64,000 nt of DNA from NCBI GenBank assembly GCA_022710935.1, contig JAKLFY010000001.1:124001-188000 (forward strand), read 5' to 3'. The notes beneath the pieces are model-generated. The model was given only the letters and a program-made list of their open reading frames with translations. It made no database searches and had not been told where the DNA came from. The DNA comes from Verrucomicrobiota bacterium (GTDB lineage Bacteria > Verrucomicrobiota > Verrucomicrobiia > Limisphaerales > J093). This document shows, piece after piece, positions 5,612 through 22,700 of this stretch (within the stretch, counting starts at the first letter, position 1; each line of letters begins with the position of its first letter). A program made the position numbers and the translations under genes.

Positions 5612-5751
5612 CCCGCTTCGCGCCGGTACTTGCCGCCGTGGTCCGGTTCGTAAAGCCGCAGACCCAACACATCGCGCATCGCATCGAAATGCCGATCGCG
5701 CGCATAGACACGCCATCCGCGGCTCACGCTCACGGTAGCCACCAGAATCAT
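5608..5751 (-). pseudogene. Fragment of a VapC-type PIN-domain toxin (C-terminal end)
   Basis: On the minus strand, a 47-codon open frame reads SRGWRVYARDRHFDAMRDV and then GLRLYEP before its stop. The layout 'RGW-V-TRD-HF' followed by a Leu-rich end is typical of the last strand and helix of PIN-domain ribonucleases of VapBC toxin-antitoxin pairs. A stop codon lies a few codons upstream in frame, and the first two-thirds of the domain, with most of the catalytic acidic residues, is missing. The stop overlaps the end of the helicase gene on the other strand. I read it as a decayed toxin gene. No antitoxin partner is visible in the 100 bases next to it. Confidence 0.5.
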
Positions 5752-5849
5752 CAGAACGTCAGATTATGCCCTGCCAAGTGCTTTGATACGAAACAACTTG
5801 GCCAGAGCCCGGGCATCAGAGCAGAGCACGCGCAGCCTTGTGAAACGGG

Positions 5850-6707
5850 CTATGCAAACAAGCTACTCGGATTCACCCCGGCCGGCAGGTTGCGCCCACC
5901 CTCGTAAAACCGCTCGAGGCGCGCGCCAGTCCAGCGTCGCAACCGGTACAGGGTGGCAAAGACAAAATCAGGCGCCGCCTGCCCCTGGCCGCCGACGAGT
6001 TCCCCTCCGCGCCGGACGTTGTCCTGCATCCAGGGCGGCAAGACGAGGTGATACGGATTGCGCTTCACCTCGCCCACGTGAAACGTCAGAGCGGTCACCA
6101 TGTCCGCGACGTCGGTGGCCGTCAGCTCGACCATCAGGTTCGGATCGTCCATCTGCCCCCAATACTCGATCTCGACACTGAAGCATGAGAGTCGCGCGCC
6201 GATCGCCTGCAGGGCGTCCGTGACCAGGCAATGCACTCCCTCATGCGTGCTGTTCCAATCCTGGTCGTGAGGAAAAAAGATCACGCGCGGCTGATGTTCG
6301 AGGAGGATTTCGGCGATCGTGCGGACCATCGGTTGCCAGACGGCGGGTTGACCCTGGCGTGTCTTGCGATTGACTTTCTCGAGACCGGTCGGCCCGGTCT
6401 GAAGCAGGCCAAAGCCGAGGTACTGACAGGCGTTTCTGAGTTCCTCGAACCGTCCCGCCCGGCGGGCGGGATTGCTGCCTTGAGTGACAGCGACGTTGAT
6501 CACGTTCATGCGGGCCTCACGCAACAGGCGCAGCGCAAGACCGCCGACGATGCACTCGTCATCCGGATGGGGCGAGAAGATCAAGGCCTTCGGCGCGTTC
6601 GCCGGGATCTCCGGCTTCGGGGCAGGCGGAAACCCGCCCAGAGGATAGTTCTTCGCTTCCCGGGCGTACCGGGCATATTCGTTAACAAGGTGGTGATACG
6701 GGTTCAT
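5850..6707 (-). CDS. PIG-L/LmbE-family N-acetylglucosamine deacetylase-like protein
   Basis: A 285-residue protein of the PIG-L/LmbE family, zinc enzymes that remove acetyl groups from GlcNAc-containing substrates (MshB, BshB, PIG-L). The zinc-binding signature HPDDE sits in IFSPHPDDECIVGG (about residue 50). A second region, FFPHDQDWNSTHEGVH, supplies the distal His motif. No signal peptide is seen, so it is probably cytoplasmic. I use the ATG at 6707; a TTG nine bases upstream would touch the stop of the preceding ROK-like gene. The two genes are thus end to end and probably translationally coupled. A deacetylase next to a sugar kinase suggests amino-sugar turnover, but the substrate is unknown. 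Confidence 0.88.
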   Translation of the reverse strand: MNPYHHLVNEYARYAREAKNYPLGGFPPAPKPEIPANAPKALIFSPHPDDECIVGGLALRLLREARMNVINVAVTQGSNPARRAGRFEELRNACQYLGFGLLQTGPTGLEKVNRKTRQGQPAVWQPMVRTIAEILLEHQPRVIFFPHDQDWNSTHEGVHCLVTDALQAIGARLSCFSVEIEYWGQMDDPNLMVELTATDVADMVTALTFHVGEVKRNPYHLVLPPWMQDNVRRGGELVGGQGQAAPDFVFATLYRLRRWTGARLERFYEGGRNLPAGVNPSSLFA

Positions 6708-17743: not shown

Positions 17744-17799
17744 CGTTTTGACCTGTATTTGGCTTGCGCGGGCCCTCCGACTTTTTGCACGCTGACACA

Positions 17800-19944
17800 A
17801 TGCTAACGACAGCAACTCAAAACGGCGCCTCCGAAGCTCTCAAGGCGAAAGCCGCAGACGCGGAAAACGGCCATGGCGCAGTCCCGATCCAAACGGCTCC
17901 CGGCCGCGCGATGACTCGAGGCGGGGCGCGCTCGCGCCCCGCTCGGTTGGCGCGCTCGACATCTCTATGGGTCTTTGCGGCCGCGGCGCTGCTGGCGGGC
18001 GCGGGCACGGCCCTGGCGCAGACCTACCTGATTGATTTCGGCGGGGCGAACACGACCATTCGCGGCGCGGCGCCCGACGATCCGAACAACGACTGGAACA
18101 ACATCACCACGGGGATCGGCAACACGGACAACGGCGTGTTGAGCAATCTTGTGACGACCGCGGGGATCCCGAGCGCGATCAACCTGGCGATGATCAGCCG
18201 GTTCAACGGCGTCAACGAAAACGGCACACAGAATGCCACCGTGTACCCATCCGAAGCGACGCGCGACTCGTGGTTCGGCAACACCGGCGATCACGGCGGA
18301 TTGACCGACATCTACCCCAAATTCAAGTTGACCGGGCTTGATCCCGCCACGGTCTACACTCTCACCTTTTACGCCTCGCGCGCGGGGGTCAGTGACAACC
18401 GCGAGACGGGCTACACGGTCACGGGCGGTAATGCGGGTTTCGCGGCCCTCGATGCGGCCAACAACGTCGACGAGACGGCGGTTGTTGCGGACATCACCCC
18501 CGACGGCGCCGGCGAGATCAAGATCGAGATCGGCCCGACCGAGAACAACAACAACTCCGTCAAGTACACCTACCTGGGGGTGCTGCGGATCGACGCCGTT
18601 CCGCCCCAGACACCTCTGACCTTCACCACGCAGCCGGCGAGCCAGCGCGTGGTCCAGTTCAAGCCCGCGACCTTCACCGCCGCGGTGACCGGGTCACCGC
18701 CTCACTTCGTGCAGTGGTATCAGAATGACCAGCCGCTCGAGGGCGAGAATCGGTTCACCCTGACCATCCCCTCGGTGACCCTCGACATGGACGGCTGGCT
18801 CTACTCCGTCAAGGTGAGCAACCTGGCCTACGAGATCACCAGCACCAACGCGGTCCTGACGGTCTACAGCGACGCGGTCCCGCCGACGGCGACCGAGGCG
18901 GTCAGCTACGACGGCACCACGATCGTGGTGACCTTCGACGAGCCGATGGACGACACCACATACGATCCGTCGAACTACAAGGTGAACGGCGGGGCGGCGG
19001 AGCTCTGGGCGGCGACGCTGAATCCGGACGGCCAGAGCGTGACGCTCAGCCTGGCGGCCCCGATCACCGGCACCTTCACGCTCGTCTTGAACAATGTCCA
19101 GGACCTTGCCGGCAACCCGATCGCCTCCGGCACCACCCTCGTCGGCCATGTTGTGCCGATCGACGACCAGGACCTGCTGTTCGATTTTGGCGCAACGGGC
19201 ACCACCACCGGCTTCGGACCGGCCCCAAACGACCCAGTGCGTCACTGGAACAATGTCACCACCACGGTCGGCAGCTCGGATACCGGACAACTGTTGGACG
19301 TGGTCACCGTGCACAACGTGCTGACACCGATCACCGTGGCGATGATCAGCCGTTTCACCGGCGCCAACGAGAACGGCACGCTCGCTTCGACTCAGTTCCC
19401 GCCACAGGCCACCCGCGACTCGCTCTACGGCAACACGGAACTCTGGAGCGGCCTCGAGAACATCTTCCCCAGCTTCAAGCTGACGGGCCTTAACCCCGCC
19501 CGGAAATACAACCTCACCTTCTACGCGTCGCGCACCAGCGTCTCGGACAACCGGGAAACCGGCTTCACCGTCACGGGTGCGAACGGGGGCTTCGTCGCCT
19601 TGGACGGCGCGAACAACGTGAACACCACGGCGACCGTTGTGATGATCGCGCCGACCGAATCGGGAGAGATCACGATCAGCCTGGCGCCCACCGCGAATAA
19701 CAACAACACCTACCACTTCACTTACCTGGGCGTGCTCCACGTATGGCCCTACGCCGAGCCGTCGCAGTTTCTGCCCGTGACCGTCGAGAATGGCAAGATC
19801 AAGCTCGAATGGACCGGGGCCGGCCAACTGCACTGGGCTCCCTCGGTTTTCGGCCCGTGGAACCCTGTTCAGCCCGCGCCGACTTCGCCCTACATCGAGG
19901 ACATTGTCGCAGGCGAGAGCCGGTTCTATCGGCTCGCGGAATAG
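17800..19944 (+). CDS. Secreted modular protein with two copies of an undescribed ~190-residue domain
   Basis: 714 residues from ATG 17800; a second ATG at 17911 (MTRGGARSRP) would place the signal peptide (WVFAAAALLAGAGTALAQ) closer to the N-terminus and is equally possible. Order in the mature protein: repeat domain copy 1 (about residues 76-267), an Ig-like domain (268-357), a second beta-sandwich of the SwmB/Big_5 type (VVTFDEPMDDTTYDPSNY, 361-449), repeat domain copy 2 (455-650), and a short C-terminal module (LEWTGAGQLHWAPSVFGPW to SRFYRL). The repeat domain has landmarks RFNGVNENGT, ATRDSWFGNT, FYASRAGVSDNRET and YTYLGVLR. No catalytic motif is seen; carbohydrate or surface binding is a guess. 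The next gene has the same domain twice. Confidence 0.8.
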   Translation: MLTTATQNGASEALKAKAADAENGHGAVPIQTAPGRAMTRGGARSRPARLARSTSLWVFAAAALLAGAGTALAQTYLIDFGGANTTIRGAAPDDPNNDWNNITTGIGNTDNGVLSNLVTTAGIPSAINLAMISRFNGVNENGTQNATVYPSEATRDSWFGNTGDHGGLTDIYPKFKLTGLDPATVYTLTFYASRAGVSDNRETGYTVTGGNAGFAALDAANNVDETAVVADITPDGAGEIKIEIGPTENNNNSVKYTYLGVLRIDAVPPQTPLTFTTQPASQRVVQFKPATFTAAVTGSPPHFVQWYQNDQPLEGENRFTLTIPSVTLDMDGWLYSVKVSNLAYEITSTNAVLTVYSDAVPPTATEAVSYDGTTIVVTFDEPMDDTTYDPSNYKVNGGAAELWAATLNPDGQSVTLSLAAPITGTFTLVLNNVQDLAGNPIASGTTLVGHVVPIDDQDLLFDFGATGTTTGFGPAPNDPVRHWNNVTTTVGSSDTGQLLDVVTVHNVLTPITVAMISRFTGANENGTLASTQFPPQATRDSLYGNTELWSGLENIFPSFKLTGLNPARKYNLTFYASRTSVSDNRETGFTVTGANGGFVALDGANNVNTTATVVMIAPTESGEITISLAPTANNNNTYHFTYLGVLHVWPYAEPSQFLPVTVENGKIKLEWTGAGQLHWAPSVFGPWNPVQPAPTSPYIEDIVAGESRFYRLAE

Positions 19945-19994
19945 GCCCGTCGCCTGTGATCGAGTCACCAGGGCTACTGCCCTCTCCGATCCCA

Positions 19995-20027
19995 TCCCTC
20001 TCTCCGGATCGAACCCGGAGAGAGGGA
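19995..20027 (+). terminator. Strong hairpin terminator-like structure
   Basis: Perfect 13-bp stem (arms TCCCTCTCTCCGG and CCGGAGAGAGGGA) with a 7-base loop, 50 bases after the stop of the secreted modular protein and before the next gene. It has no T-tract after it, so it may act as an intrinsic terminator of the GC-rich type or protect the 3' end. Confidence 0.6.
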
Positions 20028-20177
20028 ACTCTAGTGACCGGTCAGGGACTCTCCCGCGCCTGCGGAATCGTCCCTCCGAGACTGAGTTCATGGGCGCAGT
20101 GCGTTGTAAAACAGAAACTTCGCTCTCGATGAGCCTGCATTCCTCCGCTGACCTCAACTCCTGAACCCGGCACACTG

Positions 20178-22700
20178 ATGTCCAAGCTCTTCATTCTCGG
20201 GATTTTCACCGCGGCGCGATTCGGCATCGCCGCCCTGCTCTGCTCTCTTGCCGCCCAAGCCCAGCACCGTGTGCTGTTCATCGGCAACAGCTTCACAATC
20301 GGCAGCGGAGGGGGCGGTGTGCCGGGCATCTTTGACCGATTGGCTCAAGCGGGGGGGCATCCCGACCCCGTCAGCGTCATGCGCGCGGTCGGCGGTCAGG
20401 ACTTCCAATACCACAGCCAGGACGCGACCACACAATCCACACTCGAATCGCAGCCCTGGACGCATGTCGTGTTGCAGAACTACAGCACGGAGCCGACGCA
20501 TCTAGCCGGTGGGAGCATCGACGATCACTTCGCATTTGGAGCGGCGCTTTACCAACAGGCGATGGCGAACAATCCAGCGACGCGGGTCATCCTGTTCGAG
20601 ACCTGGTCGCGCGCGGCGGTGCATCCGATGATCACCGGCGCATCGTCGCCGACCAGTTTCGCGAGCACAGCGGAGTTCCAGGCCGAGCTCCGATCCAATT
20701 ACCAGGGCCTCGCGGACGTTTTAAACGCGACGCACCCGGCGCATCCGCCGGTTGTCGTGGCGCCGGTGGGAACGGCGTGGGAACGGACGGGCGGATTGCT
20801 CCGACCGACGGATCCGGGTTTCGTGCCGTTGTTTGGCAGCGACAATTACCACGGCAACAACAACGGCTATTACCTCGCCGCCTGCGTCATCTACAGCACC
20901 ATCTACGGTGTCAGCCCCGTCGGGCTGTCGACCAATGCGCTCGTTTCGAGCCTCAATCTCGGGCTGACCGTGCCGGGGGCGCGGCTCGAGGAATCGGCCT
21001 GGGCAACGGTCTCGAGTTCGAGCCAGGCGGGTCTGCAATCGTTCCTGCTGGATTTCGGCGCTGACGCCACACCGACCGCTCGGGGGCCCGCGCCCGACGA
21101 TCCCGCATGGCACTGGAACAACATTACCGAGGCGATTGGAGCGTCGCCAGACGGACGGTTGCCCAACCTCGCAACCGCCGCGAGTCTCTCGACCGACATC
21201 GGCTTCGAGATGGTGAGCCGCTTCAACGGGGCAGACCATGAGGGCAGCGTCACATCGAGCGCGTTTCCCGCCAACGCGACGCGCGACTCGCTCTTTGGCA
21301 ACACCGAACTCTTGAACGGCCTTGCCGACGTCTTTCCACGCTTCAGGTTCGTCAACCTCAATCCGTCCCGCACCTACAGCTTCACCTTCTACGCCTCGCG
21401 CGCCGGCGTGCAGGACAATCGCGAGACCGGCTACGAAGTGAGCGGTCTCAACTCGGGCTTCGCCGCCCTGAACGCGGCCAACAACTCCGACGCGACCGCG
21501 CGGGTGACCGGCATCAGCCCGGACGCGTCCGGCGCGATCGCCATCCGGCTTGCGCCGACGGCCAACAATGACAGCGCCAATCACCTCACCCACCTGAGCG
21601 CGCTGCGGATGGACGCGGTGCCACGGCAGGAGCCGGTGGTGTTCACGCGGCATCCGGCGAGCCAGAAGGTCTTCGCGGGGATGCCGGCGCAGTTCACCGC
21701 GGCGGTCGAAGGCACGCCGCCCTTCTTTATCCAATGGTTCACCAACGGCGTGCCTCTCCCCGGCGCGAACCAGTTCACCTGCATCGTGCCGGCGGTGAGC
21801 ACCAACATGAACGGCACGGTCTTCGCCGTGACGGTGAGCAACCTCGCGTTTACAGCCACCAGCAGCAATGCCGTGCTCGAAGTCGCCCCGGCCGCCCAGA
21901 ACCCGGCGGGAGAAGCCCTCTTTTTCGATTTCGGCGGGGCGAGCACCACCTCATACGGGCCCGCGCCCAACGACCCGTTGTATGCCTGGAACAACGTGAC
22001 CACTGGGGTCGGTTCGTCCGCAACGGGGCGTCTGACAAACCTCGTCACGGGCGCGAATGCGCCGACCAGGGTTGGGCTGGTCATGCTGAGGCGGTTCAAC
22101 GGGGCCAACGAGAACGGCACGTTGAACTGGCCGTTGCTGCCGGCCAATGCCACGCGCGACTCGCTTTTCGGCAACACGGAGTCGTTCGGCGGCCTGGCCA
22201 ACGTCTTTCCCAGCTTCAAGCTCGCGGGGTTGAATCCGGACGCCCGATACGATCTGACGTTCTACGCCTCCCGCACCGGGGTGAGCGACAACCGGGAGAC
22301 CAGCTACACCGTCGTGGGGAAGAACTCCGGGCAGGCCATGCTCGATGCGGCCAACAACGTCACCAACAGCGCCCGGATCATCGCCATCATCCCCAGCGAA
22401 ACGGGCGATCTTGTTGTCAGCCTCGCGCCCTCATCGAGGAACAACAACGCGAATCACTTCACCTATCTGGGCGTGCTGCGGCTGGATGTCGTGCCGCCCC
22501 CGCTGGCGTTCCTGCCGCCCGTGTTTGACGGAGGGCGGGTGAGACTCGAATGGACCGGCGCGGGTCGACTCGAACAGGCGGCCTCGATCCTCGGCCCATG
22601 GTCCGCCATCGCGGACTCGCCCGCGCCGCCGCATACCGAAGACATTCTGCCGGGTGAAGACCGATTCTTCCGCCTCACAGCGCCTCTGTCGCGCCGTTGA
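20178..22700 (+). CDS. Secreted SGNH-hydrolase-like protein with two copies of the same ~190-residue domain
   Basis: 840 residues with a signal peptide (ARFGIAALLCSLAAQAQ). The first domain (about 29-281) looks like an SGNH/GDSL-type hydrolase: LFIGNSFTIGSGG holds the nucleophile Ser in the GNSFT block, VVLQNYS a middle block, and SDNYHGNNNGYYLAA the D-x-x-H catalytic Asp/His. Such enzymes remove acetyl or other acyl groups, often from polysaccharides. Repeat domain copy 1 follows (288-484), then an Ig-like domain (486-571), copy 2 (580-774) and the EWTGAGRLEQAAS...FFRL tail. The preceding gene has the same two-copy design, so the pair probably arose by duplication and acts on the same extracellular material. 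The last 26 bases overlap the end of the dynamin-like gene on the other strand. Confidence 0.8.
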   Translation: MSKLFILGIFTAARFGIAALLCSLAAQAQHRVLFIGNSFTIGSGGGGVPGIFDRLAQAGGHPDPVSVMRAVGGQDFQYHSQDATTQSTLESQPWTHVVLQNYSTEPTHLAGGSIDDHFAFGAALYQQAMANNPATRVILFETWSRAAVHPMITGASSPTSFASTAEFQAELRSNYQGLADVLNATHPAHPPVVVAPVGTAWERTGGLLRPTDPGFVPLFGSDNYHGNNNGYYLAACVIYSTIYGVSPVGLSTNALVSSLNLGLTVPGARLEESAWATVSSSSQAGLQSFLLDFGADATPTARGPAPDDPAWHWNNITEAIGASPDGRLPNLATAASLSTDIGFEMVSRFNGADHEGSVTSSAFPANATRDSLFGNTELLNGLADVFPRFRFVNLNPSRTYSFTFYASRAGVQDNRETGYEVSGLNSGFAALNAANNSDATARVTGISPDASGAIAIRLAPTANNDSANHLTHLSALRMDAVPRQEPVVFTRHPASQKVFAGMPAQFTAAVEGTPPFFIQWFTNGVPLPGANQFTCIVPAVSTNMNGTVFAVTVSNLAFTATSSNAVLEVAPAAQNPAGEALFFDFGGASTTSYGPAPNDPLYAWNNVTTGVGSSATGRLTNLVTGANAPTRVGLVMLRRFNGANENGTLNWPLLPANATRDSLFGNTESFGGLANVFPSFKLAGLNPDARYDLTFYASRTGVSDNRETSYTVVGKNSGQAMLDAANNVTNSARIIAIIPSETGDLVVSLAPSSRNNNANHFTYLGVLRLDVVPPPLAFLPPVFDGGRVRLEWTGAGRLEQAASILGPWSAIADSPAPPHTEDILPGEDRFFRLTAPLSRR

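Follow-up and report, generated by a model that had tools for sequence, protein, structure and literature searches.

A candidate carbohydrate-binding domain of predicted malectin-like fold in two neighbouring genes of a Verrucomicrobiota bacterium

Introduction

Malectin domains (family CBM57) and the related malectin-like domains of plant receptors are among the closest described systems for the domain analysed here. The malectin domain of the receptor FER reportedly binds pectin. ANX1 and ANX2 lack the known sugar sites, and neither ANX1 nor HERK1 detectably bound any of the oligosaccharides tested (PMC6038381). A further relevant system is the N-terminal module of YxiM from B. subtilis. PMC9487903 describes it as a CBM appended to the protein, with galactose-binding domains as its relatives.

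Verrucomicrobiota encode many secreted proteins that are unassigned. The phylum is known for its polysaccharide degraders (PMC3335022). Here we analyse genes A and B in a 64,000-nucleotide stretch of DNA from a Verrucomicrobiota bacterium (the window), in which a preliminary description made from the sequence had recognized a repeated extracellular domain.

Results

Four copies of one domain in two adjoining genes

Genes A and B adjoin on the + strand and carry two copies each of the domain (Table 1). The copies are 192-193 residues long, share 51-59% pairwise identity and have 67 invariant columns in their common alignment, in agreement with the preliminary description of four copies of a domain of about 190 residues in two neighbouring genes. 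The motifs that it named are present in all four copies and in the same order. The likeness among the copies is not due to chance, because the end of gene B, C-terminal tail included, used as the sole query sequence, recovers the remaining three copies (E 1.9e-74, 1.5e-59 and 7.8e-56). A profile built from the copies necessarily matches all four, and its search of the own genome passed no further place, with 8 of 17 candidates scored. Broader profiles gave one weak fifth match in the genome (E 9.6e-5).

Table 1. Location and content of the two genes, the four domain copies and the hydrolase domain in the window.
Feature	Position	Strand	Description
Domain copy A1	18022-18600	+	In gene A; groups with four counterparts, tree support 100/99
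Domain copy A2	19174-19752	+	In gene A; tree support 99/95
Domain copy B1	21042-21620	+	In gene B; tree support 94/92
Domain copy B2	21918-22493	+	In gene B; tree support 91/88; the copy modelled, pLDDT 94.9, predicted malectin-like beta-sandwich
Gene A	ORF 17764-19944	+	Signal-like segment, domain, I-set Ig, Big_5 Ig, domain, C-terminal tail; non-catalytic; orthologues in L036-L039
Gene B	ORF 20178-22700	+	Signal-like segment, SGNH hydrolase, domain, Ig, domain, C-terminal tail; orthologues in L036-L039
SGNH-type hydrolase domain (DUF4886-like) of gene B	20259-21038	+	PF16227 below cut-off; conserved positions in 11 aligned sequences

The signal segments and C-terminal tails of both genes were assigned by eye. 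Gene A probably starts at an ATG further in than the listed 17764, at about 17800, judging by eye from the orthologues. A single Ig-like separator between the copies had been proposed for both proteins. This holds for protein B, where an I-set domain scores 22.4 bits and falls under the Pfam cut-off of 23.7, but protein A has two separators, an I-set (E 2.3e-6) and a Big_5 domain (E 4.8e-5), both above the cut-off. The SGNH hydrolase noted on one of the proteins is found in protein B only, at the N-terminus.

The C-terminal tail (about LEWTGxGxLxxA...GPW...SPY...G...FYRL), at about 19755-19944 and 22495-22697 of the window, is common to genes A and B. The same tail occurs in L005, an otherwise unrelated protein of the same genome, and in relatives including L008 and L011. 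It may serve in sorting or anchoring. The match of L005 in the search with the end of gene B stems from this tail inside the query and not from the domain.

An uncatalogued sequence family

Over the domain, genes A and B match no Pfam or NCBIfam family above cut-off, with GH36C as the nearest at 26.6 bits against a cut-off of 27. Wider family scans covered 31 copies from eight records (the window and L036-L042). A Pfam scan of these copies at E 1 returned sub-threshold matches only. PF11721 and PF21254 are absent from its list, and PF12819 (Malectin_like) matches one of the 31 copies at E 0.038. Two further families, the GH36 C-terminal domain (in 15 of the 31 copies, E 0.009 at best) and fn3 (in 5 of 31), remain below the Pfam cut-off, cover a short stretch around FYASR where a range is given, and were taken as chance beta-strand likeness. 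Matches of the 31 copies were at chance level in both NCBIfam and PHROGs (best E 0.029 in the latter). The best hit of a PDB sequence search, a nozzle protein at E 0.015, was likewise taken as chance. A search of viral contigs gave no relative of the domain, and phage records yielded chance matches only, at E 0.8. When the domain family (128 rows, of which 105 were used) was compared profile to profile with 19 Malectin domains of relatives, the result was P 0.018 at a probability of 2.6%, in the C-terminal half of the sandwich.

Literature searches found no paper describing the domain. We also looked for a sequence match to a named family of known function and found none in the family libraries. 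By Pfam, NCBIfam, PHROGs and the literature searches, the domain is an uncatalogued sequence family of known, predicted fold. The earlier label of an undescribed domain therefore stands for the sequence, which has no family in these three libraries, but not for the predicted fold, which is a known malectin-like or galactose-binding-type beta-sandwich.

The motifs FYASR and DNRET had been proposed to form an invariant structural or ligand core. Both are invariant in the four copies, but the wider family is less strict. We aligned 94 non-redundant members, obtained by thinning 114 domains at 62% identity (median pairwise identity 26%). Near-invariant in B2 numbering are D4 (96%), W24 (97%), N25 (99%), L105 (98%), Y111 (95%) and N147 (95%), and all such figures lean high because the members were chosen by profile search. 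Conservation is lower in the two motifs, with 79% of members for the Arg of FYASR, 63% for the Arg of DNRET and 68% for its Thr. Judged from this alignment, FYASR and DNRET are features of the nearer relatives and not of the family as a whole.

A predicted malectin-like beta-sandwich

The AlphaFold2 model of copy B2, built from a 31-row alignment, reached a pLDDT of 94.9 and a pTM of 0.91, and the five models range from 92.1 to 94.9. The long elements of the model are almost all beta and form a beta-sandwich. The Foldseek comparison with the PDB is modest, with a best E of 1.8e-4 and query TM-scores of at most 0.50 among the best 50 matches listed. After re-scoring of this list, the best twelve matches have Z 12.2-13.0 over 139-164 residues and consist of plant malectin-like domains, the YxiM N-terminal module and the C-terminal domain of a Bacteroides glucuronidase. 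These include ANX2 (Z 13.0, 2.8 A, 162 residues), YxiM (PDB 2o14 residues 14-158; Z 13.0, rmsd 2.7 A, 139 aligned), FER (Z 12.8) and residues 718-886 of the Bacteroides beta-glucuronidase (Z 12.8). Human malectin scores Z 10.5, at 3.2 A over 146 residues. Models without a clear match typically have a best Z of 7-8, so the leading matches lie well above this yardstick. For the one copy modelled, agreement with the malectin-type fold spans Z 10.5-13.0 and rmsd 2.8-3.2 A over 146-164 residues. The comparison with carbohydrate-binding modules proposed in the preliminary description thus points to a malectin-like fold, with several CBM-type domains at Z 7-9, a range that also holds domains of the CDTb, iota and Cry toxins. 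The fold match together with the undetectable sequence link suggests a separate sequence family of known fold.

The full-length model of protein B, built from five sequences, is poor (pLDDT 48.8). Four predicted viral proteins resemble the B2 model (query TM 0.64-0.71), one of them named as a Vibrio phage tail-fibre protein and three nameless, with no sequence support for the likeness. On their predicted structures, these proteins might represent receptor-binding modules that share the fold.

Distribution and enzyme partners

A 4-row profile detected the domain in 32, and a 60-row profile in 74, of the 387 genomes of the phylum that were sampled. With the 60-row profile this includes 66 of the 311 genomes with at least 90% completeness and at most 5% contamination. 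Copy counts from these searches, which score at most 8 candidates per genome, are minima. Three of the 14 genomes of the window's own family carry the domain. A Phycisphaerae record (L042) encodes an SGNH protein with two copies.

Enzyme partners were assessed among 71 distinct ORFs from the 32 genomes with 4-row profile matches (83 less 12 from L036-L039 and L041-L043), a sample that leans to closer relatives. Pfam scans covered 60 of these ORFs, and the remaining 11 are short ORFs judged by eye. L084, L090 and L102 were scanned only as the parts contained in L023, L028 and L033, and L121, part of an 8028-residue frame, as two pieces excluding the domain. An enzyme part is carried by 35 of the 71 genes, and 36 are without a recognised enzyme. 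Enzymes of the SGNH clan are the partner in 19 genes, with 8 DUF4886, 6 GDSL_2 and 1 sialic-acid-type acetylesterase by Pfam and 4 by alignment or eye. Eight further genes encode alpha/beta-hydrolases (6 by Pfam, 2 by eye), and some of these could be peptidases given matches to Peptidase_S9 or Esterase_PHB. Other partners are metallophosphatases (5), a sulfatase, a PL8 polysaccharide lyase and an FGE-sulfatase-like domain. By family assignment, 33 of the 35 enzyme fusions involve ester-cleaving folds (SGNH, alpha/beta-hydrolase, metallophosphatase, sulfatase). The enzyme was assigned by alignment or eye in six cases (L011, L017, L022, L116, L083, L112), and matches under the curated Pfam cut-off underlie gene B of the window, L027, L098 and L091.

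Judged by eye, 22 of the 71 are short proteins in which a single domain lies between a signal segment and a PEP-CTERM-like anchor at the C-terminus. Twelve of these were scanned, and 7 match PEP-CTERM at E <=0.01, 4 of them above the Pfam cut-off. The other 14 genes without a recognised enzyme include gene A. At the E-values applied, no glycoside hydrolase catalytic family matches among the 60 scanned ORFs, and L104 matches a lambda-carrageenase propeller in Pfam. The domain stands before or after the enzyme, occurs on several unrelated hydrolase folds and is also found without an enzyme. According to the Pfam assignments, it is appended to carbohydrate-active enzyme families (PL8, sialic-acid-type acetylesterase, GDSL_2, sulfatase), as are carbohydrate-binding modules. 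Recurrence on either side of unrelated hydrolases looks like an accessory targeting module but is no proof of one.

Some architectures are unusual. L118 (1331 residues) has a PL8 polysaccharide lyase with one domain copy at either end. In L121, part of a giant 8028-residue frame of G206, the domain follows a sialic-acid-type acetylesterase and a PLD-like domain. An arrangement unfamiliar to us recurs in five proteins (L084, L087, L089, L090, L093; 935-1175 residues), which carry the domain, a middle region of conserved sequence (SLRRAGFHV...PLPLD...DVDLI) and a calcineurin-like phosphoesterase.

The enzyme of gene B

The N-terminal 260 residues of gene B were aligned with 10 relatives, and G-N-S, Gly, Q-N and D-x-x-H are invariant across the 11 sequences. 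The Gly and Asn positions correspond to SGNH blocks. The Ser and DxxH are SGNH blocks according to PMC9487903, which also states that no member of the DUF4886 family is characterised. DUF4886 (PF16227) is the Pfam family nearest to gene B, at 23.8 bits and below the curated cut-off of 26.7, while the relatives L008 (36.6), L009 (35.2), L081 (32.2) and L014 (27.5) score above it. Gene B is the sole DUF4886 match in the genome at E 0.001. Between the window and L037, the dN/dS of the SGNH part is 0.08, at a nearly saturated dS.

Conservation of the gene pair

The A-B pair occurs in the same order in four other records (L036, L037, L038 and L039). DNA matches of these records to the window (blastn, E 1e-8) are confined to 17977-22681. 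The matches stop at the pair, hence the flanks differ and the two genes stay together in different genomic contexts. No carbohydrate genes flanking the pair were seen by eye between 13.4 and 28.1 kb. In a tree of the 31 copies, A1, A2, B1 and B2 each form one group over five genomes, with bootstrap values of 99, 99, 98 and 92%, respectively, and the B1 and B2 groups fall below the strict support mark of the tree program. A2 and B2 are closest to one another. Since each copy groups with its counterparts, the duplications predate these lineages, and the copies have escaped homogenisation. The dN/dS between the window and L037 is 0.17 for A1, 0.19 for A2, 0.18 for B1 and 0.15 for B2, at a dS of 1.0-1.6 that is near saturation. 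By these ratios the four copies are under purifying selection.

L043, a probable same-genus relative, contains only remnants of the pair at 5711-6322. The pieces match window positions 19721-19781 and 20959-21360, corresponding to about 60 bases of the end of gene A and about 400 bases across the SGNH end and half of B1. They are directly followed by sequence matching the window from 22665 onward at 93%. Unless the record is misassembled, the pair looks dispensable in this lineage.

Discussion

The domain family is real and widespread, and its proposed role is plausible and putative. On balance, the predicted fold, the recurrent enzyme fusions and the conserved gene pair under purifying selection favor the domain being a CBM-like, malectin-like module, with gene B encoding a polysaccharide-held SGNH esterase and gene A a non-catalytic binder. 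The family, mainly of Verrucomicrobiota, would act as a carbohydrate-binding module. Gene B would encode a secreted SGNH O-acyl (probably acetyl) esterase, and its two domain copies would hold the esterase on an ester-decorated polysaccharide. The non-catalytic protein of gene A would use two more copies to bind or gather the same polymer. What the computation shows is the copies, their predicted fold, the fusions to enzymes, the retained gene pair and the purifying selection. We infer that the proteins are secreted, that the domain binds sugar, that the enzyme deacylates and that A and B share a substrate. Polysaccharide binding is suggested because the predicted fold is like that of known sugar-binding domains and because fusion to enzymes is recurrent. 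The preliminary description had ventured such binding beside a deacetylase-type enzyme, and these two lines lend it indirect support.

More tentatively, and with somewhat less than even confidence, we suggest that the domain is a malectin-like adaptor common to ester-removing enzymes of four unrelated folds and to stand-alone surface proteins. Such an adaptor would read the ester decorations of a polymer, or a backbone always bearing them, so that the partner enzyme strips them. Several points argue against a carbohydrate-binding module. By analogy, the closest structural matches ANX1 and ANX2 would speak against it, as they lack the known sugar sites and ANX1 and HERK1 showed no oligosaccharide binding (PMC6038381). 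The Foldseek scores are modest, toxin domains also appear at Z 7-9, and by sequence the domain falls outside Pfam Malectin. By eye, the 13.4-28.1 kb region around the pair has no carbohydrate gene. Enzymes are unrecognised in 36 of the 71 genes, and some of the 8 alpha/beta-hydrolases could be peptidases. No glycoside hydrolase catalytic partner was found in the 60 of 71 ORFs scanned, though some might be expected for a CBM.

A structural role is unlikely but deserves consideration. The domain could be a stable beta-sandwich that extends surface proteins like Ig and Big domains and has no ligand. It adjoins Ig-like domains, it occurs in very long multi-domain proteins (L121, L122, L099), and its most conserved residues (W-N, L, Y, N) could all be part of the core. 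Spacers tend to vary in number and to homogenise, whereas the four copies keep their own identity over five genomes and are under purifying selection. The short proteins also contain, by eye, little beyond the signal segment, the domain and the C-terminal anchor.

Protein or peptide binding, with the domain assembling enzymes in a surface complex and gene A serving as a scaffold for gene B, seems rather improbable. The retention of both genes together in L036-L039 would fit a scaffold, but the domain can also stand alone in a single copy. The partner families PL8, sialic-acid-type acetylesterase and GDSL_2 are known for action on carbohydrates, and the malectin domain of FER is reported to bind pectin. 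Plant malectin-like receptors are nevertheless among the best structural matches, one FER entry being a complex with the peptide RALF23 and LLG2, and ANX1 and HERK1 bound no tested sugar (PMC6038381). A domain that merely shapes the SGNH active site as part of the catalytic unit, binding nothing alone, would explain why as many as 19 of the 71 genes join it to an SGNH-clan enzyme. This reading is very improbable for a domain that accompanies several unrelated hydrolase folds, on either side of them, and also occurs in enzyme-free proteins.

Roughly a fifth of the sampled genomes of the phylum (74 of 387) are picked out by the domain profile, which is useful for annotation. The profile also points to sets of esterases, phosphatases and sulfatases, including DUF4886 enzymes. 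If the domain binds a glycan, it would provide a handle on the substrate of all partner enzymes.

Comparison with known systems

Malectin and malectin-like domains (PF11721, PF12819) resemble the domain in the predicted beta-sandwich, at Z 12.2-13.0 for ANX1, ANX2 and FER and 10.5 for human malectin. The domain differs from both families in lacking significant sequence similarity, in scoring below the Pfam cut-off and in having its own invariant residues. PF11721 itself has six separate matches elsewhere in the same genome. Compared with the SGNH family DUF4886 (PF16227), gene B conserves the catalytic positions, but its score is below the cut-off. The AGA-YXIM_GBD family (PF21254), which includes the N-terminal module of B. 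subtilis YxiM (PDB 2o14), is like the domain in fold at Z 13.0, but does not recognize the domain copies at the Pfam cut-off. PF21254 has matches in none of 20 genomes of relatives, own genome included. Both the YxiM module, as described in PMC9487903, and the present domain appear to be accessory to an SGNH esterase-type enzyme. YxiM has one N-terminal module, whereas gene B has two copies placed after the enzyme and flanking an Ig domain.
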